A stretch of DNA of 34,150 bases from a virus. A program made the position numbers and the translations under genes. This document shows positions 13,671 through 33,777 of this stretch, one piece after another. The notes under the pieces are model-generated. The model was not told the origin of the DNA. It made no database searches and saw only the letters and a list, made by a program, of their open reading frames with translations. The DNA lies in the IMG/VR virus record IMGVR_UViG_3300020470_000097, positions 1-34,150 of that record. One strand, 5' to 3'. Each line of letters starts with the position of its first letter. The stretch's first letter is position 1.

Positions 13671-13859
13671 TTACTTTGGTAAAGGGTTTGCATACGATAA
13701 TCTTTCTTCTGGGCAGGTATCACGTACAAAACTCAATACATTCATAAATTCATCTATAGTATCACATTCAACTACCTTCTTATCTCCTTCACTGGAATAT
13801 AGATAGACAGTTCTCTTTGATGGATCTACCACACACTTAGTCAAATACTCATCTTCCAT
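13671..13859 (-). CDS. Small hypothetical protein, 62 residues
   Basis: The protein starts MEDEYLTKCVVDPSKRTVYLY. A strand-strand-helix pattern (TVYLYSSEGDKKVVEC, then IDEFMNVLSFVRDTC) suggests a small alpha/beta domain, and there are three cysteines. It lies between the 258-residue protein and two other small genes, all in one orientation. I do not recognise a function. Codon use and spacing look like a real phage gene. Confidence 0.6.
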   Translation of the reverse strand: MEDEYLTKCVVDPSKRTVYLYSSEGDKKVVECDTIDEFMNVLSFVRDTCPEERLSYANPLPK

Positions 13860-26998: not shown

Positions 26999-29416
26999 TT
27001 AACCATCCCCACGATATAAAGCCATAAAAGGACTAGCAGATTTTCCACCACCTTGACTTACAGGTGCAGATTCTTCAGCAGGGGCAAGACCACCACCAGC
27101 ACCAATAGGAATAGGAACTTCCTTAATTATTATACTACTATTTTTAGGATCTTCATAGAAAGCAAATTGTTCTAATTGTCCTATTCCTCTATTATTCTCT
27201 GCTTTTTCCCATAATGCATTAGCTTTAGGGTCATTATATCTTGGAGTTTCACTCATTATAAATTTATCTCTCTCTCGCTTAGATATTTTACCACCCACTA
27301 GATGACTCGTACTTCTTTTTGGGAAAATTTTATCATCTTTCTTATCTTTACCAAATAAACCTCTTAATCCTCCACCGCCACCATCTTCACCAATTTTTAC
27401 CAATTTATATCCATCAGGAACACTTGAAAACATTCCCTGAGTAAGATCCTTAAGACCACCCCAGATGTTTTTGCCAATTTCCTTTGCTCCTTCTATAACC
27501 TCACCAGCTTTCTTCTTAGCTTTTTCCCAATTTTCTTTTGCTTTTTGCTCTTGTTCTTCCTTTTTCTTTTCCTTTACTGATTTTGCTGTAACTGCTGGAG
27601 GTTTACCTACCTTATCAGCTGGTGCAGATGACCCTGCTGGAGGGAATATTCCTGGTAAAAATGAACTAGCAATATGTTTAGCTAAAAAAGGAATTCCAGG
27701 AGGACTTAACATAAAAAGATTAGGAATTTTCGTTAATCTTCCACCCTCAACATATCTATTAAGACCAGGAACAAATTGAGCAATAAATCCTAAAATTTCT
27801 TGTACTCCTGGAAGTTTTCTTAATGCATCAACTACTGACCACCCACCAATAAAAGGAACCCAATCTGGTATTGATACTGAAAGGAATTTTGCACCTCCAG
27901 GAATGTTTTGAAGAACATTACCAATTAAATCACCAGGTCGAATGTCTGGTATAGGAATAGTTGGAAAATTATCAATCATCCTTGCAATTCCATCCTTAAA
28001 GAAATTGTATATAGGTTCAATAAATGTCTTAAACGTATCTTTAAGTTTCTTACCAACTCCTTCTATACCACCACCCATTAGTAATTCATATATTAAATCA
28101 CCAACAAAAACACCAATAGTTTCACCAACCAATGTTCCAACAACAGGTATAGGTATAAAAGTTCCAAGTGCTCCACCCAATGCTGCACCAAGTGCTTTAA
28201 ATATTGCCTGACCTGGTGGTTCCCCTGACATGATGGAGACAACACCAACAATAAGAGGACCAAGAATAGGAATTCTACCAGCAAATTTAGCAACTTTTGG
28301 TCCTACCGTTTTCATTACTGGACCAAGAGTTTTTGCTGCTGGACCTAAGAACTTAGCAGCAAGTCCACCAACTTTACCTGCTGCTGCTCCTGCACCTTTA
28401 GAAAAAAGACCTCCTACCTTACTAAGTGCTTTTCCTCCAAGATTCTTAGCACCCTTCATCAATCCCTGTGCTAATTTTCCAGCAGCACCACCAGTCAATT
28501 TATTAATTAATCCACCAACTCCTTTAAGAATATTCTTTGCAATTTTAAATGCTCTAGTAATTGCTCCTTTTAGAATCTTCCATGTTCTCTGTATATTTGC
28601 AACAACTGCCTTAAATATCTTTTCACCTATCAACTTCCATATAAGAAATCCTTGGAAAAGATTCTTAAGGTTTTCCATGAAGATGCCAAATTTCTTCGCA
28701 CCTTCTTCACCAAAAGCACCTTTCACCATCCCCTGCATAAAGTTAACAAATTTATATGCACCATCAACAAAAGTTCCCAATACATTAACTGCAAATACAG
28801 CAATCTTAGCAATCCAATCTATTGCTCCAGCAATTATAGGAACGGCTTTCTGTAATGCAGGTAAGAAATCTACCATTCTTACCATAACCCATCCCATTAT
28901 TACACCTGTGAAGAATTCTAATAATTTTGCCCACAGACTCTTAACTTGTTTAGGAACCAATTTACCTAAATTTGGTCCTTTCTTTTTCTTCTTATCTTTC
29001 TCTAAATCTTCTTCTGCAGCAGAATCTTCTGCCTTACCTTCTAATAATCTTTGCTGTTCTAATTGTTTTTGCTGTAGAGTATAAGAACCTTTAAGAAGAG
29101 TATCAACTGCTATAACACTAGTTTTAATTTTTAATAAAGTTCCTTCTATTTGTTCTGATCCACCACCTCCTCCACCTGCAGCAGGAGTCTTTTGAATAGC
29201 CTCTGTAGACTTAGCAAGAGGCATTGGTGATACCTGTGCCTTAACAATTGCTCCACCTTTTTCTTCACCAACACCAGAATCTTGACCCATGATTTTTTGA
29301 GCACTTGCTCTTCTGGCATCAGTCTTTTTCTTTCGATTAAGTAATTTATCAGTAGCAATTTGTTTTGCCTTACCTTTAACGGCACCTGCTGCTGCTTTTC
29401 CTAATGCTGCCCACAT
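26999..29416 (-). CDS. Second tape-measure-like tail protein
   Basis: This 805-residue protein has a basic, Ala/Lys-rich N-terminus, a short charged coiled segment (about 110-150), and then a long hydrophobic region. Near residues 151-182 it carries VPKQVKSLWAKLLEFFTGVI, which resembles PVKSLWTKVMDFLVGVLLG in the gene before it. Further on are Gly/Ala-zipper stretches (for example ALGAALGGALGTFIPIPVVG near 400-430) as seen in tape-measure or membrane-insertion parts of tail proteins. The C-terminal third is Pro/Lys-rich. It begins 4 bases after the first tape-measure-like gene. It could be a gp29-type tape measure, a hub plug, or a partner inside the tail tube ejected into the host membrane. 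The family is inferred from composition and order. Confidence 0.6.
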   Translation of the reverse strand: MWAALGKAAAGAVKGKAKQIATDKLLNRKKKTDARRASAQKIMGQDSGVGEEKGGAIVKAQVSPMPLAKSTEAIQKTPAAGGGGGGSEQIEGTLLKIKTSVIAVDTLLKGSYTLQQKQLEQQRLLEGKAEDSAAEEDLEKDKKKKKGPNLGKLVPKQVKSLWAKLLEFFTGVIMGWVMVRMVDFLPALQKAVPIIAGAIDWIAKIAVFAVNVLGTFVDGAYKFVNFMQGMVKGAFGEEGAKKFGIFMENLKNLFQGFLIWKLIGEKIFKAVVANIQRTWKILKGAITRAFKIAKNILKGVGGLINKLTGGAAGKLAQGLMKGAKNLGGKALSKVGGLFSKGAGAAAGKVGGLAAKFLGPAAKTLGPVMKTVGPKVAKFAGRIPILGPLIVGVVSIMSGEPPGQAIFKALGAALGGALGTFIPIPVVGTLVGETIGVFVGDLIYELLMGGGIEGVGKKLKDTFKTFIEPIYNFFKDGIARMIDNFPTIPIPDIRPGDLIGNVLQNIPGGAKFLSVSIPDWVPFIGGWSVVDALRKLPGVQEILGFIAQFVPGLNRYVEGGRLTKIPNLFMLSPPGIPFLAKHIASSFLPGIFPPAGSSAPADKVGKPPAVTAKSVKEKKKEEQEQKAKENWEKAKKKAGEVIEGAKEIGKNIWGGLKDLTQGMFSSVPDGYKLVKIGEDGGGGGLRGLFGKDKKDDKIFPKRSTSHLVGGKISKRERDKFIMSETPRYNDPKANALWEKAENNRGIGQLEQFAFYEDPKNSSIIIKEVPIPIGAGGGLAPAEESAPVSQGGGKSASPFMALYRGDG

Positions 29417-29420
29417 ATGA

Positions 29421-32054
29421 TTATACCGTTATCCCCAATACTGCAATCTTACTTGCTGATATCTTTTTAGCAGGATCCATAAGAGGTAGCATCTTACCAC
29501 CACCAACACCTGCCATATTTTGACCTCCTCCCAATCCCGAAGTTAATGATTTATCAACCTGGACTCCACCACCCATATCTGAAGATTTTGCAGGTGGTTT
29601 AATAGCATCTCCTGCTGGAGGTTTGGCAGACTTCATTAAAGGACTTCCTTTTGGAATATCCGCAACTGCAATACCAATTACTTTATCTTCATCACCTTCC
29701 TTATCACCCATCATTGCACCCAACTTATCTTTTGCACCACTTACCAATTGCGCTAATGGATGTTTCATTGCTAATTTTTTAGCACCACCTAATATACCTT
29801 TACCCATATTAGCATTCATCTTCATAAGATTCTGAACACCAATCTTTGCTGTAGATACTTTATTCATTACAAACTCACCAGGAGTTAACATAGCAGGAAC
29901 AGTATCTTTATTACCACTTCCAGGAACATTACCTCCACCACTCATAGTCATTATATTAGATAATGTTGGAACAATACCACCAGCATTTAACCCAACTGCT
30001 TGTGCAGTCTCATCTGGGTTTAAGAACTGTGTTCCAGATTCCATATCAATTCTAATTGCTTCATCTCTTTTTGCATCTGATGCTTTCCATGCATCACTAC
30101 TATTAAGAATAGGAAAAAGAGTTTCTTCTGGTATACCTACAAGTCTTCCTTGCCCATCAGGATATTGTACAACATCCATAAAATTAATATCTTCATATCC
30201 TTTTACCTTACGTATAGATTCGACAAGTTGGGTCTGATGTTCTATCAAATCAGGCATCCCTATAGAACCACCCAATTCAGTCAATGTTTCTTTATCCTCT
30301 ATTACCTCACCTCCTTTTGTTTTGAGACTAGAGGTAAATGTTTCCTTATTATACATAAATTGATCTGGTAGAACTTGACCCATTCTATATCCAGTTGTTC
30401 CAAAATGAGATTTATCTCCAACAGGACCACCACCCGAATAAGCAGGTTTTCCATCCTTTTCTGTCGGTTTATTTGTACCACCAGCAGCAGCATTCATTGC
30501 AGCAAGAGTATCTACACCATATGCCTGTACTGCACCCTTACTTAAAACAAACTCACCATCGGTAAGCATTGCAGGGACTTTATCATCTCCTTTCTCACCC
30601 CGTATTTGCCCACCTTCTTTAGATTCTACAGGACCACCTTCCTTAAACTTAGACGACATCTCATCTAGTTTCAACTTTTCTGCATCAGTTCTATCTCCTC
30701 TTGGAGTAACAGATGTTAGCTCTGCAGGTTCTTTGGATTCTGATGGATCTTTTGTTTCAGGAGCATCACCACCAAGTTTCTTTGCATCATTTTCTATATT
30801 TTTTCCTAAATCTTCCCCTGTCTTTGTGGCATCACTCTCAACATTCTTTAATTCCTTATCAACTTTACCCCCAAAACTAAAAATTGATTTCACTATATTA
30901 ATAATCTTAGGAATACCCCATGCCAATAATGCAATTGTCCCAAGAATCATTCCTCCAGGACCTAATAAGGCTGGAACAAATGCCATGATACTTGCTAATA
31001 AAACTGGCCACCAATCTTTAAGGAATTTAAATAAAGAACTAACCTTATCTTTATTTGCAGGATCAGTAAACCACTCAAACAAACTCATAACAGCTCTTCC
31101 TAATAAGACCCCTACTAAGAAGTCCATCACTTTAGTCCATAAACTCTTAACAGGTGCAAGAACTTTTTCTCCTATCTTCTTTGCACCACCCATTATCTTA
31201 CCACCAGCCTCTAAGGCTTTCTCCTTCATTCCTCTTTTCTTCTTCTGCTGCTGTTCTCTTTGTTCAGAAACCTGTTCTTGACTAACTTTTTGTTGATCTA
31301 TTAATGTTTGTCTAATCGAATCAACACTACCAGCAATCGAATTAACAACACCTATTACACCATCTAAAGGAGATGCAGGTTGTTGTGATTGAGATACATC
31401 CTCTACTGTTTTTGATAGTCCATCTTTTTCTTGCTTATCACCTAACTTAAATCTTCTCTTTCTTTCTTCAGGACTTAGATACTCTCCTTTTTCATCTACA
31501 CCCATCACCCTCGATTTATATCCAGCATCAAATGGAGTTCCTTTTGCTAAATCTTTAGCACTTATCTTTCTCTTTTTAGCCTTAATTGGTGGTCTCTTTT
31601 TCCTTGGTTTCTTCTTCTTTGCTTCTGGTTTCTTTTTCTTTGGTTCTGTCTTTGGTTCTGGTTGATTACGAACATCATCTAAAACATCATCCAAACCTGG
31701 AGGTATTTCATCTTCTCCTTCAGGTGTCTCGTCTGTTACTTCAGGTTCTTTAGGTGTCTCGTCTGTTACTTCAGGTTCTTTAGGTGTCTCGTCTGTTACT
31801 TCTTCTTCTATTTTTTCTACTACTTCCTCTACTGCTGCTTCTGCTGTCTCTAATTCTGCAAGTCTTTTCTCAAGCCCAAGAACACGCACCAAGGTTTTCC
31901 TTTGCATTCCAAAGGACTTACTTAGTGTTTTATGTAATTGAGCAAGTTGAATAGGAATGTCTTTCTCAAGACGTTCAACTTTACCCGCTAGTTGATAGTG
32001 AGGATCATGCTTTGCTCTCAAAGCATCTATCATATTGGGTTTAGTACTTGGCAT
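29421..32054 (-). CDS. Tape-measure-like tail protein
   Basis: This 877-residue protein has a predicted N-terminal coiled coil (KVERLEKDIPIQLAQLHKTL and on, to about residue 110), an acidic Pro-rich segment with a tandem 10-residue repeat (EVTDETPKEP), and a lysine-rich segment (PKKKKPEAKKKKPRKKRPP). A membrane-like domain at about 299-400 contains KSLWTKVMDFLVGVLLG and LLGPGGMILGTIALLAW. The C-terminal half has two copies of a tape-measure signature, DKVPAMLTDGEFV (about 489) and DTVPAMLTPGEFV (about 716), common in tail-length proteins. It overlaps the 62-residue gene by 14 bases. A T4 gp29-type tail-length and DNA-ejection role is likely. Confidence 0.7.
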   Translation of the reverse strand: MPSTKPNMIDALRAKHDPHYQLAGKVERLEKDIPIQLAQLHKTLSKSFGMQRKTLVRVLGLEKRLAELETAEAAVEEVVEKIEEEVTDETPKEPEVTDETPKEPEVTDETPEGEDEIPPGLDDVLDDVRNQPEPKTEPKKKKPEAKKKKPRKKRPPIKAKKRKISAKDLAKGTPFDAGYKSRVMGVDEKGEYLSPEERKRRFKLGDKQEKDGLSKTVEDVSQSQQPASPLDGVIGVVNSIAGSVDSIRQTLIDQQKVSQEQVSEQREQQQKKKRGMKEKALEAGGKIMGGAKKIGEKVLAPVKSLWTKVMDFLVGVLLGRAVMSLFEWFTDPANKDKVSSLFKFLKDWWPVLLASIMAFVPALLGPGGMILGTIALLAWGIPKIINIVKSIFSFGGKVDKELKNVESDATKTGEDLGKNIENDAKKLGGDAPETKDPSESKEPAELTSVTPRGDRTDAEKLKLDEMSSKFKEGGPVESKEGGQIRGEKGDDKVPAMLTDGEFVLSKGAVQAYGVDTLAAMNAAAGGTNKPTEKDGKPAYSGGGPVGDKSHFGTTGYRMGQVLPDQFMYNKETFTSSLKTKGGEVIEDKETLTELGGSIGMPDLIEHQTQLVESIRKVKGYEDINFMDVVQYPDGQGRLVGIPEETLFPILNSSDAWKASDAKRDEAIRIDMESGTQFLNPDETAQAVGLNAGGIVPTLSNIMTMSGGGNVPGSGNKDTVPAMLTPGEFVMNKVSTAKIGVQNLMKMNANMGKGILGGAKKLAMKHPLAQLVSGAKDKLGAMMGDKEGDEDKVIGIAVADIPKGSPLMKSAKPPAGDAIKPPAKSSDMGGGVQVDKSLTSGLGGGQNMAGVGGGKMLPLMDPAKKISASKIAVLGITV
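31711..31800 (-). repeat. 30-bp tandem repeat encoding EVTDETPKEP
   Basis: A 30-base unit is present in two identical copies at 31741-31770 and 31771-31800. A third, partly matching copy covers 31711-31740 and shares the last ~16 bases. It gives a 10-residue acidic repeat in the first tape-measure-like protein. It keeps the frame and could vary in copy number. Confidence 0.9.
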
Positions 32055-32229
32055 TAGCCTTTTCTTGGTTCCGTTTTAGTTCCTCTTCTTCGAGGTGCAA
32101 TCTTAGAAGTCCAACATAAATGTCTCGCTCCCAAGGCATCATATTCTCAATTTCTGTTAATGAATATTTATGGTACTGCATCAAGGCAAAATTGAGACGG
32201 AAGTAATTCTCAAGGTCCATATGGACCAT
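32041..32229 (-). CDS. Small tail-assembly protein, probable frameshift extension of gp26 (gp51-like position)
   Basis: This 62-residue frame reads MVHMDLENYFRLNFALMQYH, then YSLTEIENMMPWERDIYVGL and a charged helix. The MPWERDIYVxLL helix pattern resembles the second part of tail-assembly chaperones encoded just upstream of tape-measure genes. Annotators of related phages often name genes in this position gp51. No Shine-Dalgarno sequence is visible before ATG 32229, and the frame is reachable from gp26 by a -1 shift at 32238-32244, so it may be made only or partly as a gp26 fusion of about 303 residues. It overlaps the first tape-measure-like gene by 14 bases, giving further coupling. Free initiation at ATG 32229 or 32220 is the alternative. 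Confidence 0.7.
   Translation of the reverse strand: MVHMDLENYFRLNFALMQYHKYSLTEIENMMPWERDIYVGLLRLHLEEEELKRNQEKANAKY
32214..32227 (-). promoter_or_regulatory. Perfect palindrome forming a hairpin downstream of the slippery site
   Basis: GGTCCATATGGACC is a perfect 14-base inverted repeat. In RNA it gives a 5-bp GGUCC/GGACC stem with an AUAU loop. It starts 10 bases after the slippery heptamer, close to the usual spacing for a frameshift-stimulating hairpin. It also covers the start region of the 62-residue frame. Confidence 0.5.
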
Positions 32230-32231
32230 GC

Positions 32232-32951
32232 CTAGGCGAAAAAAGATGCTAATCCCTCCAATACCACATCACTCTCAACTTTTGTTTTTGGATTAGTTAC
32301 TTTAATAGTATGAGACAATTTAGGCATAGTTTCGAAGAAAGTCTCAATTTGCTTAAATTGACTAGAATTCATTTGCTCTAAGAAATCATTTACTTCTTTC
32401 TTAGTACAATCAGCTGTTGCCCAAACCTCATCTTTATTATAAATTTTATCAATACAAGAAGCGATCAACTGGAATGACTGATCCATTTGATTCTTTTCAT
32501 TAAAATCAAAATTATTTTTAATAAATTGATCCAATGACGGATACTTCATTTCCATCATCAAATCTTCATCTATTTTAATTTGTTTAGTATGATCTTCATT
32601 TTTCTGAACTTGAATATCATCTAAATTAATGTCTACAGTTACTTGAGTTGCCCCATCATCAGGACAAACAATATTAACTTCCAATTCCTCACCAACAGAT
32701 TTACCTCTAATATTAAGGAACAAAAATTCAATATCAAAAGTAGGAAGTTGTTCTACTTTAATTCCCTTTGTTTGTACACAGTTCTTTAATACTGATTTAA
32801 TAGCAGTTGTGATCTGCTTATTATCTTCACTTTCTAAAGCAAGTACTAATAATTTTTCCTCTTTTACTAAAAAAGGTCTATATTGTACTGTCTCGTCTGT
32901 TGATGGTAAAACCAATTCATAGGTTGGCGTAGCAATCTTTGGTAATGGCAT
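32232..32951 (-). CDS. gp26: Baseplate hub gp26-like protein (tail-assembly chaperone-like)
   Basis: This 239-residue protein starts MPLPKIATPTYELVLPSTDE and continues VQYRPFLVKEEKLLVLALES, the recognisable start of the T4 gp26 baseplate family. The middle is an all-beta region with a KVEQLPTFDIEFLFLNIRGK segment, and the end is helical (IASCIDKIYN, EQMNSSQFKQIETFFETMPK). In T4, gp26 takes part in hub assembly. The gene lies just upstream of a short frame and the tape-measure genes, the same order as in tail-assembly chaperone systems. AGGAT precedes the start, and a TATAAATA box lies 28 bases before it. The last codons form an in-phase -1 slippery site (TCT TTT TTC). Confidence 0.85.
   Translation of the reverse strand: MPLPKIATPTYELVLPSTDETVQYRPFLVKEEKLLVLALESEDNKQITTAIKSVLKNCVQTKGIKVEQLPTFDIEFLFLNIRGKSVGEELEVNIVCPDDGATQVTVDINLDDIQVQKNEDHTKQIKIDEDLMMEMKYPSLDQFIKNNFDFNEKNQMDQSFQLIASCIDKIYNKDEVWATADCTKKEVNDFLEQMNSSQFKQIETFFETMPKLSHTIKVTNPKTKVESDVVLEGLASFFA
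32238..32244 (-). promoter_or_regulatory. Probable -1 programmed frameshift slippery heptamer T TTT TTC
   Basis: In the gp26 frame the codons read GCA TCT TTT TTC GCC TAG, so the heptamer T TTT TTC has the canonical X XXY YYZ phase. A -1 slip continues CGC CTA GGC ATG GTC CAT with no stop, joining the 62-residue frame. The gp26 stop is two codons after the heptamer. The match to phase and position is exact; function is inferred. Confidence 0.6.
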
Positions 32952-33003: not shown

Positions 33004-33777
33004 TTATGAACCAAAATAATCTAAAACATTCTGAGCTGCCTGTGAAGATACATTTAAACCAGTGGCATCATTAAGAATATCTATACCAAAATCAAGCAAA
33101 GGATTAACACCACTCTGTCCTGCTCCACTATTAACTGGTGGTTTGGTTGCTTGTGAAGAAATAGTCCCTCTATCTAACCCCATTAACACATATCTAACAT
33201 ATGTCATAGAAACTGTACATTTTAAAAGATTAGATCCATCATACGATAGTGGCATCGAAGTCATTGCCTTTGGCCATGCTTTAACAAATTGATACTGTAA
33301 TTGTCCACTATGTTTTTCCCAAAAACTTTTCTCAAATTTAGTAATAGTTAATCCACTAGAAGTATATCCATCATCACCATCAGGATATCTCGCCCTATAA
33401 TTATAATTCGCATATAGAGGATTTACTTGATCAGATTCATTTTCATTCATTACACCTCTCATCCATTTCTCAAAGAATTTTATAGGAACATAATTCTCAC
33501 CATCAACATAAAAAGTAAAATCCATACTTTCATCAAACATTCTTCTATATGCGTGTCTCTCAGTTACTCCAGTATAGTCATTAGTTATTTCTGACGTTGC
33601 TATATTAGATCCTGGTAATGATGCTTCGGTGCATTGCAAATTTAACCTTATCCTCTCACTACTCTCTAACTCACTCTGCATGAAGGGAGGTAGGGGAATC
33701 TGAACCTCAAAATGTGAAGTTAAAGCAGGATTAAGTAGATTAGCTTTTATGGCAGATGTGCCTCTTTTGGTAGGCAT
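33004..33777 (-). CDS. Tail-tube-fold baseplate protein (gp54/gp48-like)
   Basis: This 257-residue protein has the pattern of tail tube and tube-initiator proteins: a LTSHFEVQIPLPP strand near the N-terminus, ERIRLNLQCTEASLPGSNIA, then YRRMFDESMDFTFYVDGENY followed by IKFFEKWMRGVM. The C-terminal region MPLSYDGSNLLKCTVSMTYV resembles, from memory, the LSYDGDN segment of T4 gp54. In T4, gp48 and gp54 sit on the hub and start tube polymerisation. The length is shorter than T4 gp54 (320 residues). It is the first gene on this minus-strand stretch and divergent from gp4. The tube-fold class is likely; gp54 versus gp48 is not resolved. Confidence 0.7.
   Translation of the reverse strand: MPTKRGTSAIKANLLNPALTSHFEVQIPLPPFMQSELESSERIRLNLQCTEASLPGSNIATSEITNDYTGVTERHAYRRMFDESMDFTFYVDGENYVPIKFFEKWMRGVMNENESDQVNPLYANYNYRARYPDGDDGYTSSGLTITKFEKSFWEKHSGQLQYQFVKAWPKAMTSMPLSYDGSNLLKCTVSMTYVRYVLMGLDRGTISSQATKPPVNSGAGQSGVNPLLDFGIDILNDATGLNVSSQAAQNVLDYFGS

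Follow-up and report, generated by a model that had tools for sequence, protein, structure and literature searches.

The window analyzed here is the 34,150-nucleotide (nt) sequence of IMG/VR record IMGVR_UViG_3300020470_000097, a fragment from a marine myovirus of the T4-like kind, and its tail genes are on the minus strand. The subject is the junction between gene 26 and the small gp51-type frame which follows it. The gp26 of the window is 81% identical to gp26 of Synechococcus phage SynMITS9220M01 (Kyanoviridae). The junction is composed of these features:

32232..32951, minus strand: gp26, putative short tail assembly chaperone (TAC-N), 239 amino acids (aa); PF12322 E 7e-77, phrog_150 E 1e-80

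32238..32244, minus strand: slippery heptamer T TTT TTC in -1 phase, one sense codon 5' of the zero-frame stop

32232..32234, minus strand: zero-frame stop TAG of gp26

32214..32227, minus strand: hairpin GGUCC-AUAU-GGACC, presumed frameshift stimulator, from its fold and its excess stability over same-amino-acid codon shuffles

32191..32213, minus strand: second predicted stem-loop UUGAGA...UCUCAA, adjoining the first, from its fold

32041-32229, minus strand: 62-aa gp51 frame

32041..32238, minus strand: -1 frame extension, i.e., RLG plus the 62-aa gp51 frame, putative C-terminal part of the long chaperone (TAC-C); phrog_634 and open frame in relatives

32041..32951, minus strand: predicted 303-aa fusion gp26-51 (TAC-NC) by -1 frameshift; one continuous phrog_150 match

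The 3' end of gp26 reads GCA TCT TTT TTC GCC TAG, with the heptamer at 32244-32238. The -1 frame reads TTT TTT CGC CTA GGC ATG GTC and is free of stops down to 32041. A slip would join 238 residues of gp26 to 65 residues of the -1 frame, 303 aa in all, with ...GLASFF-RLGMVHMDLENYFR as the predicted junction peptide. An earlier note on this DNA had pointed to the heptamer in slippery phase at the gp26 end, to a -1 slip giving a fusion of about 303 residues which enters the 62-residue frame without a stop, and to a perfect palindrome with a 5-bp stem at 32214-32227, 10 bases past the heptamer. All of this agrees with the minus-strand sequence, and the palindrome folds as a stem. In the 17 open reading frames (ORFs) of the window, which comprise 10,375 codons, T TTT TTC or T TTT TTT is found in phase at this site alone.

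Searches with gp26 and the small frame retrieved 123 unique IMG/VR junctions. In all of them (123/123) the small frame is in -1, the spacing is the same and the heptamer is T TTT TTC. Addition of named phages brought the set to 142 unique junctions, 135 of which have the heptamer at exactly -10; the remaining seven are outgroups or have another spacing, among them S-CRM01 and S-H34, where the heptamer is at -7. Third positions at the slip codons are invariant, i.e., T, T, and C in 135/135 junctions. The serine codon ahead of TTT is TCT (62) or AGT (57), always with a final T. The glycine three codons 5' of the first slip codon is encoded by all four synonyms, and elsewhere in gp26 of the relatives the phenylalanine codons TTT and TTC are used in a ratio of 1090:423. 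In 121/121 relatives the -1 frame runs for 60-66 codons without a stop; the median for the +1 frame is 9. A chance heptamer is ruled out because it is the sole in-phase copy among the window ORFs and is invariant in 135/135 junctions.

Further scans with gp26 yielded 65 unique divergent junctions whose gp26, except in copies of the probe phages, is 33-59% identical to the query. In 64 of these 65 an in-phase T TTT TTC or T TTT TTT is present together with a -1 frame containing a gp51-type motif. The heptamer is found in a KVP40-genus Vibrio phage (represented by Vibrio 1.081.O), Aeromonas phage AS-zj, Cronobacter phage S13, Stenotrophomonas phage YB07, and Variovorax phages. The sole exception is a Stenotrophomonas phage contig, L265, which has five T where its near-identical sister L264 has six (L265:2249 versus L264:2250); the missing T shifts gp26 into the +1 frame. 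This is either a homopolymer sequencing error or a real mutation or slippage. The distance from the start of the heptamer to the zero-frame stop is 7, 10, 13, 16 or 31 nt among relatives. The heptamer stays while the stop distance varies; therefore it is the heptamer which is conserved and not the gene ending.

Rhizobium phage RHph_I1_18 has T TTT TTA, located further upstream. The Ackermannviridae-like outgroups Serratia Kevin and Vibrio D493 possess an open -1 frame and no canonical heptamer, and a different slip site may operate in them. In D493 and Kevin (L165:3535-3640, L168:3565-3670) CTT TTC AAG and GTT TTC ATC, respectively, replace the heptamer. A scan of viral contigs with a Vibrio gp26 gave no match. 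The approximately 200 junctions span Kyanoviridae, other marine contigs, and KVP40-genus Vibrio, Aeromonas, Cronobacter, Stenotrophomonas, Variovorax, and Sinorhizobium phages. The earlier note had suggested aligning this junction across relatives and looking for phages which keep both frames and lose the heptamer. The outcome of this comparison is strongly positive: heptamer, phase and open -1 frame are kept in all 135 close junctions and in 64 of the 65 divergent ones, and the Ackermannviridae-like outgroups are the only ones with an open -1 frame and no canonical heptamer.

The protein families tell where the two parts belong. Window gp26, a PF12322 protein, is homologous to T4 gp26 and to T4 gp51. 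T4 gp26 consists of PF12322 only; T4 gp51 comprises PF12322 plus the phrog_634 part. The small frame matches phrog_634, 'baseplate hub assembly catalyst', with E 4e-27 and also matches columns 241-277 of phrog_150. The fusion is aligned with phrog_150 in one stretch, residues 1-284 to columns 5-277 of 282, and scores 309.5 bits, compared with 272.2 bits when gp26 is aligned by itself. T4 gp51 spans columns 13-280, i.e., both the fusion and T4 gp51 cover phrog_150 nearly whole.

An AlphaFold2 model of gp26 has a predicted local distance difference test (pLDDT) score of 86.9. Among 465 PDB chains its top matches are the HK97 tail assembly chaperone (2ob9) with Z 7.8, 3fgx with 7.7, and YqbN (3klu) with 7.1, the latter two of which we take to be relatives of tail chaperones; the next match is at 4.8 (VIA-align 2). 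These three alignments comprise 84-86 residues, all inside gp26 residues 1-96. A Foldseek comparison of the model with the PDB gave no significant match, and no match came from searching PDB sequences with a profile of gp26. With Z < 8 the model lends moderate support to a tail-chaperone fold of the gp26 short form.

In the window, the hairpin and the second stem fold with -12.3 kcal/mol, z -1.74 against dinucleotide shuffles, which is weak alone. As a control across 121 relatives, codons were permuted among relatives sharing the same amino acid at that position of the -1 frame. The full +7/+20 stem is present in 54% of relatives versus 38% expected, and 0/1000 shuffles were as high. The 28-nt window from the gp26 stop has -6.38 kcal/mol versus -4.41 kcal/mol in the shuffles (z -10.8; the shuffle z-scores disregard relatedness and are hence inflated). 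The better control is provided by the flat windows downstream: those beginning at least 24 nt downstream show no stability excess over codon shuffles in the 121 relatives. Within 48 nt, -6 kcal/mol is reached by 93% of relatives versus 55% of shuffles. The divergent phages, too, have a localized excess, with a z of -7.8, likewise inflated, at 18 nt past the heptamer.

The stems themselves differ among the relatives. The 121 relatives sort into those with +7/+20 only (53), +17/+39 only (37), both (19), and other (12). The second stem of the window belongs to the +17..+39 class, which serves as an alternative or additional structure in relatives. In disjoint sister pairs the +7/+20 pairing survives 15/23 double changes versus 0-8 in slid controls. 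RNAalifold found no structure common to all 121 relatives; together with the restriction of the complete +7/+20 stem to 54%, this rules out one universal hairpin. Tentatively, and with the odds somewhat against it, one may propose that the slip is stimulated by a hairpin which nearly all these phages keep at most about 50 nt from the heptamer, its pairing partners being rebuilt during evolution (+7/+20, +17/+39, or longer). This would be a turnover of the stimulator beside an invariant slippery site; no description of such turnover was found in the literature.

Thus, it is highly probable from the sequences that a programmed -1 frameshift makes two tail assembly chaperones from this locus, a short one (gp26) and a long one (gp26-51). 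We read the junction in this way because heptamer, phase and open frame are conserved, starts for the small frame are missing, the fusion and T4 gp51 are collinear, the fold is chaperone-like, the RNA stability is localized, and prior literature points in the same direction. For the majority of ribosomes, translation would end at the gene 26 stop codon, TAG, with the 239-aa short chaperone as product. A minority would slip back by one base on T TTT TTC, with both tRNA-Phe re-pairing with TTT, probably aided by the downstream mRNA hairpin, and would then translate the gp51 frame to produce the 303-aa long chaperone. Slip, rate and partner binding are carried over here from phage lambda gpG/gpGT. 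By this analogy the role of the short form would be to coat the tape measure protein, and that of the long form to recruit tail tube subunits by means of its C-terminal part.

Three observations weigh against this interpretation. First, 43/70 single changes break the +7/+20 pairing. Second, the first hairpin is not universal, as evident from the 54% versus 38% for the full stem. Third, 82/121 close relatives, roughly two out of three, have an ATG at the position of the window's ATG, two bases past the gp26 stop, and some separate gp51 could be made from it. A dual arrangement, in which ATG-bearing phages produce the frameshift fusion and in addition some free C-terminal piece by reinitiation, appears improbable. 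It draws on an ATG which is common, yet not universal. A conserved ribosome site is lacking: the earlier note had seen none for the small frame of the window, and a Shine-Dalgarno core for the gp51 frame is likewise absent in 113/121 relatives. Moreover, the phages devoid of any start codon manage without a free piece.

That gp51 is exclusively a separate small gene, expressed by termination-reinitiation at this ATG and never fused, is very unlikely. GenBank records give gp51 its own coding sequence, and where the ATG exists, stop and start are close to each other. Yet 39/121 close relatives have no ATG at this position, and in 28/174 unique extensions neither ATG, GTG nor TTG precedes the conserved part. 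A gene of its own would also leave unexplained the frozen in-phase heptamer and the lack of stops in the -1 frame from the slip to the ATG, and T4 gp51 has both domains in one chain. Because start codons and ribosome sites are missing, an independent gp51 gene is ruled out as the sole explanation. The public annotations of AS-zj and S13 omit gp51, and that of S-E7 starts it late (L164:3628-3795, L166:3580-3750, and L156:3712-3900, respectively), as is expected if gp51 is without a start codon of its own. Slippage of RNA polymerase on the T run, where one base added to six consecutive T would also lead into the -1 frame, is hardly credible, since the phase of the run versus the codons is constant in about 200 junctions, which only tandem tRNA slippage requires, and a run of six T is short for transcriptional slippage.

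The proposed frameshift site has these neighbors:

33004..33777, minus strand: tail tube protein gene, upstream of gp26; PF23849 E 3e-14, phrog_45 E 7e-36

29421..32054, minus strand: 877-aa ORF, probable tape measure or tail-interior protein; weak tape-measure PHROG matches and position

26999-29416, minus strand: 805-aa ORF; weak tape-measure-like matches

The earlier note had recognized the gene order of lambda-like phages, with the frameshift directly before the tape measure gene. The tail tube gene on the upstream side is clear; the identity of the next ORF as tape measure is less firm. The first 14 nt of the 877-aa ORF are shared with the end of the gp51 frame. Annotated or candidate tape-measure genes in HTVC008M, phiM12, and RHph_I1_18 are positioned similarly, with a small ORF in between. 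From its position and weak matches the 877-aa ORF is a candidate tape measure, as is the 805-aa ORF. The 877-aa ORF carries in-frame tandem repeats of the EPEVTDETPK type with nearly identical DNA (window 31690-31790). Elsewhere in the tail region, another heptamer in phase, C CCT TTA, is located in a 62-aa ORF (13671-13859, minus strand), 13 nt upstream of the stop codon of that ORF.

A close parallel is phage lambda gpG/gpGT. In lambda, and by prediction here, a -1 slip is located at the end of the short-chaperone gene and gives a short and a long product; a tail tube gene comes before, and a tape measure gene, here a candidate, after. The protein sequences differ, the slip site here is T TTT TTC, and window gp26 has about 150 extra residues past the domain resembling the HK97 chaperone. 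The window fusion is collinear with T4 gp51. However, T4 has two separate, divergently oriented genes, the long form being a complete gene of its own, whereas the window has one locus with a predicted frameshift, in which only the 62-aa frame follows gp26 and the N-terminal domain is provided by gp26.

Vladimirov, Gautam and Davidson in 2022 (Virology 566:9-15, doi 10.1016/j.virol.2021.11.003) reportedly found frameshifting to be seemingly conserved in several T4-like groups, with T4 itself using genes 26 and 51. The T4-like chaperones of that work share the short/long logic seen here. Later papers cite it for the presence of slippery poly-T sequences in T4-like phages, in their TAC-N genes (PMC12846349), and for the separate short and long chaperone genes in some T4-like phages (PMC10274946). 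The suggestion of the earlier note that such a frameshift might be undescribed for T4-like phages does not stand in view of these passages. A similar locus in Pseudomonas phage Adele and in Vandenendeviridae/Andersonviridae has a conserved -1 frameshift at a poly-T motif, argued from the -1 frame being open in every genome; phage families and motif are different (GTTTTT versus T TTT TTC here) (PMC12846349). Since both papers cite Vladimirov et al. (2022) for T4-like chaperones, the mechanism is not new in kind and has been known in T4-like phages since 2022; the finding is real and well supported. A direct description of a frameshift in cyanophage gp26/gp51 was not found in the open-access literature. 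Novelty may lie in the analysis of the hairpins and in how deep the conservation goes.

The analysis has a practical consequence for annotation: 'gp51 baseplate hub assembly catalyst' entries of marine phages, present in hundreds of genomes, would mostly be pieces of a frameshift product with starts that are wrong or missing. Further, support is given to the idea that in T4-like phages outside the group of T4 itself tails are built with a lambda-style pair of short and long chaperones, and that genes 26 and 51 of T4 are the two-gene version of this pair.

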